Shown here piece by piece: positions 3,508-5,147 of a stretch of 6,918 nt of DNA. Made by a program: the position numbers and the translations under genes. The number at the start of each line of letters is the position of its first letter. Within the stretch, counting starts at the first letter, position 1. Below the pieces are notes generated by a model. That model was not told the DNA's origin and searched no databases. It saw nothing but the letters and a program-made list of their open reading frames with translations. This stretch comes from an uncultured Collinsella sp. (GTDB lineage: Bacteria; Actinomycetota; Coriobacteriia; Coriobacteriales; Coriobacteriaceae): NCBI GenBank assembly GCA_900764955.1, contig CAAFPY010000063.1, forward strand, positions 1 to 6,918, given 5' to 3'.

Positions 3508-4947
3508 TTAGTTCTCCTCGGTCGCAGCGTTCTCGGACTCGGCGAAATTCCAGCCGGCGAGGCGGTCCTTCGCGGTGTCGATGTCCAGGTAGTTCTCCTC
3601 GCCGTCCATGAGTCGCGTAAAGGCGGTAAAGAGATAGTGGGCATCGGTGGGGCCGGGCGAAGCCTCGGGGTGGTACTGGACCGAGAAACACGGGGCGTCG
3701 AGCAGCTGGATGCCCTCGGCGGTGCCGTCGTTGAGGTTCACATGTGTCAGGCAAATGCGACCAAAGCGCTCGTTCATCACGACCGGCGCGACGCCGCGAC
3801 GCACCCAGGCGCGCAGGTCGCCATCGGCCGCATGCTCGGTTTCGCCGCCGGAAAGCTCCGGAATCAGTTTGCCCAGACTGGGGAACAGCAGGCCAAAGCC
3901 GTGGTTTTGCGCGGTGATCTCCACGCGACGGCTCACCAGATTCATAACCGGCTGGTTACCGCCACGGTGACCGAATTTAAGCTTTTCCATTTGGGCGCCG
4001 CAGGCCAAGCTGATCATCTGGTGACCCAGGCAAATACCAAAGACCGGCACCTTGCCGATCAGCTGCTGCACCTGCTCGTAGGTCTCCACCACGGCATCGG
4101 GGTCGCCGGGGCCGTTGGACAAAAAGACGCCATCAGGATTCATGTCGAGCACCTGCCGGGCGGGCGTATCCCACGGCACGACGGTGAGGTCGCAGCCGGC
4201 ACGGACCAGGCCCTCCAGAATACCGCGCTTCACACCGCAGTCGTAGGCGACCACTTTGTGACGGGCAGGAGCGGCAGCCACAAGCGCCAAGCCATGCGTG
4301 GCAGGCAGGTCGGCGGCCACAAACTCGTGAGGCGCGGGACAGCTCACGGTCTTGACCAGGTTCTCGCCCACCAGCGTGGGCGCTGCGTCCAGACGCTCGG
4401 CGAGCTCGTCGACGTCGAAGATCTCTGTCGAGATAATGCCCATCTTGGAACCATTGTCGCGCAGATGGCGCACCAGAGCGCGGGTGTCGACACCCTCGAT
4501 AGCGACGATGCCGTGAGCGCGCAGGTACTCCGGCACGCTGACGGCCGAGCGCCAGTTAGAAGGCGTGGCGCACATGTCGCGAACGATCATGCCGCACATA
4601 GCCGGAGCGCTCGCAGGGCGCACGGCGTCGCCGGGGAAGGCCGACTGGACATCGGTCTCGTCGATACCGTAATTGCCGATCTGCGGATAGGTCATGGTTA
4701 CAATTTGGCCGGCATAACTCGGGTCGGTCATGACCTCAAAGTAGCCCTCAAGCGAGGTGTTGAAGCAGACTTCGCCGGTCGCGGTGCCCTCGGCGCCGCA
4801 TGCACGTCCATAAAAAATGGTCCCATCCTCAAGATACAGGATACAGGGACCGCAGGCGCCCTTGCTGGTTTTGGCCAGCATACGCTGGCAAAGCTCGCTG
4901 GGCGCGAAGGTGCGGGCGGCAGCGCCCGCGGTATGGTTGTTCGCCAT
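3508..4947 (-). CDS. carA: Carbamoyl phosphate synthetase small subunit (glutaminase)
   Basis: CarA hydrolyses glutamine and passes ammonia to CarB. The protein is 479 residues against about 382 in E. coli. The CPSase small-chain domain begins near residue 33 ([10 protein letters not shown] at 39-48, [17 protein letters not shown] at 62-78, YPQIGNYG at 87-94). A class I glutamine amidotransferase domain follows from about residue 230 (SNGPGDP at 277-283). The catalytic triad is complete: C306 in GICLGHQ, H426 and E428 in YHPEASPGP. The extra length has three parts: about 30 residues at the N terminus, about 36 inserted between QNHGF (347-351) and LTH (400-402), and about 31 at the C terminus. 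The start is the ATG at 4945-4947, which has AAGGAGA just upstream. An in-frame GTG at 4966-4968 would add seven residues but falls in the loop of the leader hairpin. It is first in the operon with carB, and its translation is probably repressed by PyrR. Confidence 0.97.
3514..3519 (-). promoter_or_regulatory. carB ribosome binding site inside carA
   Basis: GAGGAG lies seven bases upstream of the carB ATG and is formed by the adjacent Glu-Glu codons near the CarA C terminus (ATEEN). The carA stop TAA and the carB ATG are separated by one base. This arrangement supports translational coupling, which would help keep the two subunits at equal levels and would carry any repression of carA translation over to carB. 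It also fixes the carB start. Confidence 0.85.
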
Positions 4948-4950
4948 AAT

Positions 4951-4957
4951 TCTCCTT
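4951..4957 (-). promoter_or_regulatory. carA ribosome binding site, within leader hairpin
   Basis: The minus strand reads AAGGAGA and then three bases to the ATG at 4947, a strong Shine-Dalgarno match that decides the carA start. Its first four bases (AAGG, 4957-4954) are also most of the 3' arm of the lower stem of the PyrR-type hairpin, so ribosome access and hairpin formation should compete. Confidence 0.85.
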
Positions 4958-4984
4958 CCCGGTCTCACAGGACCGGCTTAAAGG
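4954..4984 (-). promoter_or_regulatory. PyrR-binding RNA hairpin in carA 5' leader
   Basis: Read as minus-strand RNA, the element has these parts. The lower stem is CCUUU (4984-4980) with GAAGG (4958-4954), five pairs including one U-G. A purine bulge AAG (4979-4977) sits on the 5' side only. The upper stem is CCGGUC (4976-4971) with GACCGG (4964-4959), six perfect pairs. The hexaloop is CUGUGA (4970-4965). Known PyrR-binding loops of Bacillus pyr leaders have a CNGNGA hexaloop, a UCC...GAG core, a purine-rich 5' bulge and a lower stem; all are present here. PyrR binds such loops when UMP is plentiful. In Bacillus this favours transcription termination; in Mycobacterium, PyrR represses translation through a loop near the ribosome binding site. 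Here no terminator lies between hairpin and gene and the Shine-Dalgarno sequence is in the lower stem, so translational repression is the natural reading. The pyrR gene itself is not in this window. Confidence 0.82.
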
Positions 4985-5000
4985 TGTGTAGTTAGGCCTC

Positions 5001-5016
5001 GCGGTATTGTAACCGC
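5001..5016 (-). promoter_or_regulatory. Possible carA promoter -10 box within a small palindrome
   Basis: The minus strand has TACAAT at 5011-5006, five of six matches to the sigma-A -10 consensus. Transcription would start around 4999, giving a leader of about 50 bases that contains the whole hairpin at 4984-4954. The hexamer is flanked by GCGGT and ACCGC, a perfect 5-bp inverted repeat that could be an operator. I see no good -35 box at the usual spacing (positions 5029-5034 read ACGCCA), so the promoter is either weak, activator-dependent or misplaced by me. Confidence 0.4.
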
Positions 5017-5104: not shown

Positions 5105-5147
5105 ATTAAAAATCATCCCGCGGGGCTTGTGGCTCACACGGGATGAT
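5105..5147 (-). terminator. Intrinsic terminator of the ABC transporter/membrane protein unit
   Basis: On the minus strand a perfect 9-bp stem, ATCATCCCG (5147-5139) with CGGGATGAT (5120-5112), encloses an 18-base loop that can form a small inner stem (TGTG/CACA). A run of five T (5112-5108, the first being the last stem base) and then AAT follow. The stem begins six bases after the stop codon of the 321-residue protein. The T-run is modest, so some read-through into carAB is possible. Confidence 0.72.

Follow-up and report, generated by a model that had tools for sequence, protein, structure and literature searches.

How is carbamoyl-phosphate synthase controlled in Collinsella when the ribosome-binding site of its first gene, carA, is folded into an RNA hairpin? 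The question is raised by the 6,918-nt stretch of DNA analyzed here (the window), for which an initial annotation had proposed a very compact regulator, a PyrR-type loop on the carA Shine-Dalgarno (SD) sequence with no attenuator. The window is assigned to the Collinsella aerofaciens group judging by its CarA, which shares 93–99% identity over the best segment with loci L001–L018, L021, and L024, all from Collinsella (L and G numbers denote loci and genomes). Comparisons within the family cover 65 genomes; the family is the one to which GTDB assigns the C. intestinalis genome G006, taken here as Coriobacteriaceae. The features needed first are as follows:

6918–6139, minus strand: ABC transporter, end of gene
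6119–5154, minus strand: gene without an NCBIfam match, membrane-protein-like by eye
5108..5147, minus strand: intergenic terminator-like structure behind the upstream gene, stem of −19.4 kcal/mol and then U5
5006..5011, minus strand: −10-like box TACAAT of the carA promoter, read directly
4954..4984, minus strand: hairpin resembling a PyrR-binding loop
4957–4952, minus strand: SD sequence AAGGAG of carA, read directly from the sequence
3508..4947, minus strand: carA, glutamine-hydrolysing carbamoyl-phosphate synthase small subunit, 479 aa
192..3506, minus strand: carB, carbamoyl-phosphate synthase large subunit (NF003671, 1609.6 bits; cut-off, 599)

The carA product scored 436.5 bits with TIGR01368 (cut-off, 307.35), and its ATG occupies 4947–4945 of the minus strand. 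The terminator-like structure at 5108..5147 sets off the carA promoter from the upstream gene. Because carB begins one base past the carA stop, it is presumably co-transcribed with carA and subject to both controls discussed below. Genes argG and argH were each above cut-off in 14 of 15 genomes, so that carbamoyl phosphate probably serves the arginine pathway as well as the pyrimidine pathway, as the initial annotation had assumed. Just past the carB stop (105–180), a strong inverted repeat without a U-tract was observed (CTTTCTCTCGGA...TCCGAGAGAAAG within G+C-rich outer arms; −63 kcal/mol over 107 nt), the core of which was found in one of eight relatives searched (G002), on the same contig as carA.

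Positions 4984–4954 of the minus strand (CCUUUAAGCCGGUCCUGUGAGACCGGGAAGG) comprise a 6-bp upper stem (CCGGUC/GACCGG), the hexaloop CUGUGA, a 3-nt AAG bulge on the 5′ side, and a 5-bp lower stem (CCUUU/GAAGG) with one U-G wobble. All of the elements that the initial annotation had described are thus present in the sequence, including the overlap with the SD sequence, four bases of which (AAGG) lie within the lower stem; the hairpin ends at 4954. The minimum free energy structure of 4984–4954 in RNAfold was exactly this hairpin, at −13.1 kcal/mol. This energy was matched by 4 of 200 dinucleotide shuffles and that of a longer piece (4930–5000) by 19 of 200; since some shuffles fold equally well (4/200), folding energy alone is only moderate evidence.

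The hexaloop fits CNGNGA, which we take to be the PyrR loop consensus and with which the consensus of Rfam RF00515 agrees. The Rfam PyrR consensus matches the hairpin at bulge, loop, and lower stem, in keeping with the earlier reading of the loop as PyrR-type. The full layout of a PyrR site was found (upper stem, CNGNGA loop, 5′ bulge, and lower stem CCUU/AAGG), and so was the mark of the Mycobacterium type, a loop that overlaps the SD sequence of the controlled gene. RF00515 was also the best Rfam match of the window, with 34.8 bits (E value, 0.055) and a gathering score of 54. The model run that had been suggested placed the first hairpin exactly at 4984–4954 and the terminator of the model inside carA, but the score stayed below gathering. 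Two of 14 named control genomes exceeded the gathering score, and none of 13 relatives did. A terminator is part of the model, and the carA 5′ leader here is without one. The carA hairpin is regarded as working like a PyrR site and is not filed as an RF00515 member because the gathering score was not attained.

A search pattern consisting of the upper stem, the loop, and AAGGAG, with up to two mismatches, matched 58 of the 65 family genomes at one site each, and the reversed pattern matched 0 of 65; chance is ruled out by this conservation together with the reversed control. Among the seven misses, CarA was not found in three genomes; the other four do have carA, preceded by a diverged hairpin that in two cases carries a double change, GGU/ACC to GAU/AUC. 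The hairpin precedes carA in all 62 family genomes with carA among the 65, a count made up of 59 scored genomes and L135, L140, and L145, whose layout matched when inspected by eye. An in-frame CarA start codon followed the hairpin by no more than 10 nt in all 60 rows scored (the 59 genomes and the window). Conservation among relatives, on which the initial annotation had staked its reading, was accordingly seen wherever carA was found in the family. The genomes in which CarA was not found (G030, G035, and G043) may draw carbamoyl phosphate from elsewhere or may be incomplete assemblies; G030 and G035 keep the pyrR attenuator described below with frames reading as pyrB and pyrC.

Among 28 distinct 31-nt hairpins, AAGG and the loop positions C, G, G, and A were invariant (28/28 each), most positions never varied, and 90.9% of cells pair. 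Such invariance is as expected for a protein site, and it is also the reason for the weak covariation within the family. Both-side changes affected two pairs, which 110 of 500 shuffles reached, and four cells (1 of 500 shuffles), and the covariation score of 0.116 exceeded all 500 shuffles but not the same structure slid by one column (0.121). A check for compensatory changes in both stems had been suggested; these were found as GGU/ACC to GAU/AUC, the main covariation within the family, and as a U-A to A-U change that the pyrR-leader copies add in the lower stem, but covariation was weak overall. When the carA loops were turned into a covariance model, 18 of 21 genomes gave a single strong site each (E value, 1.4e-6 or better), located at carA; the model scored only 150 of the 546–1864 candidates per genome and missed the loop type of the pyrR leader.

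In 45 of 46 distinct upstream regions, a TANNNT box matching TATAAT at five or more of its six positions sits 13–21 nt ahead of the hairpin, and the whole hairpin is therefore very likely part of the mRNA. No clear −35 was seen upstream of the −10-like box of the carA promoter. Transcription would start near 4999, giving a leader of approximately 52 nt with about 15 nt before the hairpin. The position of the predicted −10 argues against a start below 4984, inside the hairpin.

A pyrR gene, whose absence would have spoken against PyrR control, was sought in relatives. PyrR was above the NCBIfam cut-off in 12 of 13, including all 10 Collinsella tested; the cut-off was also passed by 6 of 14 named control genomes. 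The solved chains closest to the PyrR of the relatives were PyrR proteins, including 1a3c and 1w30/5iao, which we take to be PyrR of Bacillus subtilis and Mycobacterium tuberculosis, respectively. In the loci viewed, pyrR was followed by frames that read by eye as pyrB and pyrC. The pyrR leader carries a second PyrR-like loop, which reads GGGUA-CGAGA-UACCC in L047 and its nearest relatives; a terminator-like stem with a U-tract comes after it, and the 3′ arm of this hairpin pairs, at −25.8 to −27.7 kcal/mol, with sequence that precedes the terminator. This pairing beat all 200 shuffles in the five closest pyrR leaders (L047–L051) and reached p 0.05 in 9 of 11, the exceptions being L056 (0.085) and L057 (0.9). 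The pyrR-pyrB-pyrC leader looks like a classic attenuator, and a similar loop before other pyr genes, which the initial annotation had suggested looking for, was thus found there.

The loop in the pyrR leaders of L047–L051 and L053–L057 consists of five nucleotides, CGAGA, closed by A-U. It is one base shorter than the carA hexaloop, and one PyrR may therefore recognise two loop sizes. A loose loop pattern picked up some further pyrR leaders as well as a look-alike ahead of a gene for a P-type ATPase; because its reversed control gave similar totals, the loose pattern is not evidence by itself. The look-alike, TTAAAACGGGTACGAGATACCC, lies upstream of a P-type ATPase-like frame in L213, L214, and L215 (G001, G002, and G003), reads TTAAAAAGGGG... 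in L215, and was judged probably not to be a PyrR site in these three C. aerofaciens-group genomes. At carA, a PyrR-type clamp on the SD sequence is well supported at the sequence level, and PyrR control of carA translation is likely.

The statement that the regulator has no attenuator is doubtful, as carA contains, at 4851–4812, a terminator structure that bears signs of selection. Its two parts are as follows:

4819..4851, minus strand: terminator stem-loop GGUCCC...GGGACC, from codon 33 of carA
4812..4817, minus strand: U6 tract, in the codons Ile ATT, Phe TTT, and Tyr TAT

The arms GGUCCC and GGGACC enclose an inner stem and are followed by A and U6; the whole spans carA codons 33–46 and overlaps the protein motif LEDGTIFYG. 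The structure was noticed first, from the Rfam hint, and tested afterwards. The stem alone was calculated at −15.7 kcal/mol and the terminator with its tail at −17.4 kcal/mol (z −3.7), which 1 of 200 shuffles matched; some relatives have stronger versions, for example L108 (GCGGUCCCGCUAUCCUCAUGCUUGAGGACGGGACCGU-UUUUU, −25.5). The only sites in the window at or below −14 kcal/mol before a T5 run were this terminator and the one at 5112. A generic promoter and terminator scan of the window, with terminator loops restricted to 3–8, missed both the carA −10 and the in-gene terminator; the six other terminator-like sites that it listed compare with 3.8 expected from shuffles.

The in-gene terminator was present in 38 of the 62 family genomes with carA. 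It was absent from 22 that keep the hairpin (three by eye), which indicates that the clamp does not need the terminator, and two more have one mismatched pair. These counts were scored on 60 of 63 rows, L135, L140, and L145 being left out where the protein-motif pattern failed; by eye, these three show no U5 tract. The rows are related, many closely, and the counts are not independent. The stem begins 97 nt into carA (median near 90 and range 42–102 in terminator rows). The N-terminal stretch of CarA before LEDGT (4947–4831) comprises 39 codons in the window and 23–66 in relatives, a length that gives room for the terminator; apart from a T(S/T)K motif noted by eye, the stretch varies.

Random synonymous recoding, with the carA codon use of each row and scored for U5 plus an equal stem, gave structures as strong in 0–3 of 4000 cases in 13 rows hand-chosen for diversity (2 of 4000 for the window). 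The carA coding DNA of 60 rows, 40,091 nt in total, held 39 strong sites with a stem followed by U5; every one lies at this position, and no other turned up on either strand. The glycine codon in the terminator is GGG in every one of the 39 terminator rows. It is GGG in 3 of the 21 other rows too, the near-terminators L086 and L088 being two of these three; in the rest of the carA stretch examined, GGG accounts for 79 of 1123 glycine codons, and in carA plus carB of the window for 2 of 146, that of the terminator included. Stem and U-tract occurred together in 39 rows and were both missing from 19; two rows had the tract with one mismatched pair, and none had the stem alone. On the tree, nine changes are needed, at least four of them on well supported branches, and an independent-pairs sign test gave three same, zero opposite, and one no difference (p 0.25); the co-occurrence thus rests on few independent events. 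Stem variants were GCUCCC/GGGAGC with Thr to Ser (L132, L143, and L144) and CGGCCC/GGGGCCG with Thr to Ala (L087), and the stem covaries through these amino-acid changes. The in-gene terminator is probably a real feature maintained by selection.

CarA was found in 203 of 247 genomes of the order, family included. Among 40 carA 5′ regions hand-picked from the matches listed outside the family, 24 carry the loop; 13 of these are laid out like an ordinary attenuator, the loop and the start being separated by a terminator-like structure, for which a stem of −8 kcal/mol or lower and a run of at least four T residues were required. The carA clamp may therefore be a remodelled attenuator. The loop lies clearly on the SD sequence in L152, L153, and L155, as in Collinsella, and no in-gene terminator was seen by eye in these three; L181 and L184 are ambiguous in this respect.

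How the hairpin and the terminator might be linked was examined with duplex energies set against shuffles and with pair probabilities computed while the hairpin was forced. Classic PyrR attenuation would have GACCG of the hairpin pair with CGGUC in the 5′ arm of the terminator, with PyrR preventing the pairing. This 5-bp match occurs in the window and in other GGUCCC-type relatives but is broken in L087, L143, and L144. Pairing of the hairpin 3′ arm with the terminator 5′ arm had p >0.05 in 39 of 40 carA rows (exception, L144 at 0.045), whereas 9 of 11 pyrR leaders passed, the target being about 67 nt in pyrR leaders and 21 nt at carA, each compared with its own shuffles. Forcing the hairpin lowered arm pairing in L103 (0.75 to 0.37) and L074 (0.49 to 0.16), which fits such a switch; however, of 29 rows so examined, just three showed a shift above 0.1 in how the terminator 5′ arm pairs, and 26 stayed within 0.1. 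Despite the attenuator layout of the 13 leaders outside the family, classic attenuation at carA is improbable, and a Bacillus-type antiterminator was rejected on these tests, which were negative in most rows. The terminator arm paired with the 5′ end of the leader in 18 of 29 folds, hairpin forced or not, but among 21 distinct rows this complementarity exceeded that of shuffles in one alone; a different type of antiterminator, acting through the leader 5′ end, may exist. With no antiterminator found, the ribosome remains as the candidate link between hairpin and terminator.

The best reading is a PyrR gate combined with a ribosome-linked terminator inside carA; its coupling is plausible, and we consider the whole somewhat more probable than its opposite. 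The carA mRNA would start about 15 nt before the PyrR-type hairpin, whose lower stem holds the SD sequence. When UMP is plentiful, UMP-loaded PyrR would keep the hairpin closed and ribosomes off carA, and in the lineage of the window the RNA without a close ribosome would fold the terminator at codons 33–46, ending carAB transcription. When UMP is scarce, PyrR would leave, ribosomes would load on carA, and a leading ribosome near the RNA polymerase would keep the terminator from folding. The stability of the hairpin alone (−13.1 kcal/mol) counts against this two-tier model.

Pure translational repression of the Mycobacterium kind, with the in-gene terminator as a constitutive partial stop that sets the carAB level, is a possible though distinctly less probable account. 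It would suit the distribution of the two elements, a clamp in 62 of 62 genomes and a terminator in 38, and translational repression by the PyrR of M. smegmatis has been reported (Fields and Switzer 2007). In E. coli, moreover, terminators in the first 100 bp of coding regions are described as acting despite translation (PMC4824070), a distance within which the carA stem, at 97 nt, begins, and in B. subtilis, RNA polymerase is described as outrunning ribosomes (PMC7858274); these results are why the ribosome link is set at little better than even. On the other side, the terminator appears to be kept by unusual codons across several species, and a constitutive strong terminator would be costly where a weaker promoter would do, the latter being an argument only. 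Very improbable, by comparison, is a generic 5′ structure or a site of another regulator whose likeness to PyrR loops is coincidental: the Rfam score under the gathering cut-off would allow it, PyrR binding being a prediction, yet the bulge, loop, and lower stem follow the PyrR consensus, the loop bases C, G, G, and A are invariant, all 10 Collinsella tested have pyrR, and a similar loop heads pyrR-pyrB-pyrC in an attenuator layout. A further step beyond the gate-and-ribosome reading is offered tentatively, as a doubtful proposition: carA might be its own attenuator that reads pyrimidines twice, UMP through PyrR and UTP through the spacing of polymerase and ribosome, a PyrR attenuator having been rebuilt as gate plus terminator while the classic one was kept at pyrR-pyrB-pyrC.

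The proposed arrangement shares parts with several known systems. In M. smegmatis, also an actinobacterium, PyrR reportedly represses the translation of pyr genes, and the carA locus resembles it in having a PyrR loop at the ribosome-binding site. To our knowledge, the M. smegmatis pyr genes have no leader attenuator; the Collinsella target differs in being carAB, with a selected-looking terminator inside the first gene. The B. subtilis pyr attenuators and RF00515 share the layout of loop, bulge, and upper stem with the carA hairpin, as well as PyrR as the sensor, and the Collinsella pyrR-pyrB-pyrC leader looks to be of that kind. At carA, in contrast, the loop closes over the SD sequence, an antiterminator was not found, and the terminator lies inside the coding sequence. 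In E. coli pyrBI, the translated frame is a separate leader peptide, and we know of no PyrR in that system, whereas here carA itself is the frame, with proposed PyrR control of ribosome entry. The likeness to pyrBI lies in an intrinsic-terminator structure, seen as a sequence feature, inside a translated frame of a pyrimidine operon: the stretch that begins with the carA ATG and closes with the U-tract measures 136 nt, and the pyrBI terminator lies within a 135-bp leader peptide gene (PMC4824070). By eye, no marked U-rich tract precedes the carA terminator stem, and no pause site was identified there. B. subtilis bmrB likewise has an intrinsic terminator in a translated frame that is read by the ribosome; the sensor is an antibiotic-slowed ribosome, an antiterminator is present, and bmrB acts as a leader peptide (PMC4191407), whereas the carA frame encodes an enzyme. 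Among the titles and beginnings of abstracts listed by searches of open-licence literature, none described a PyrR site at carA in Collinsella or an in-gene terminator under PyrR, although other papers could.

The in-gene terminator may be a later addition that was repeatedly gained or lost, given its presence in 38 of 62 genomes on a tree whose direction is unrooted. These results suggest that one RNA-binding regulator drives two different output devices in one cell and that the coding sequence of an enzyme has been selected to carry a transcription stop. The family offers a natural comparative series, in which the terminator is present or absent in close species and the loop is constant where carA was found, and this series lets transcription-translation coupling be asked about in a gut actinobacterium. 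Runaway transcription of the B. subtilis kind is a possibility in Collinsella, and early in carA even a change between synonymous codons may have an effect there.
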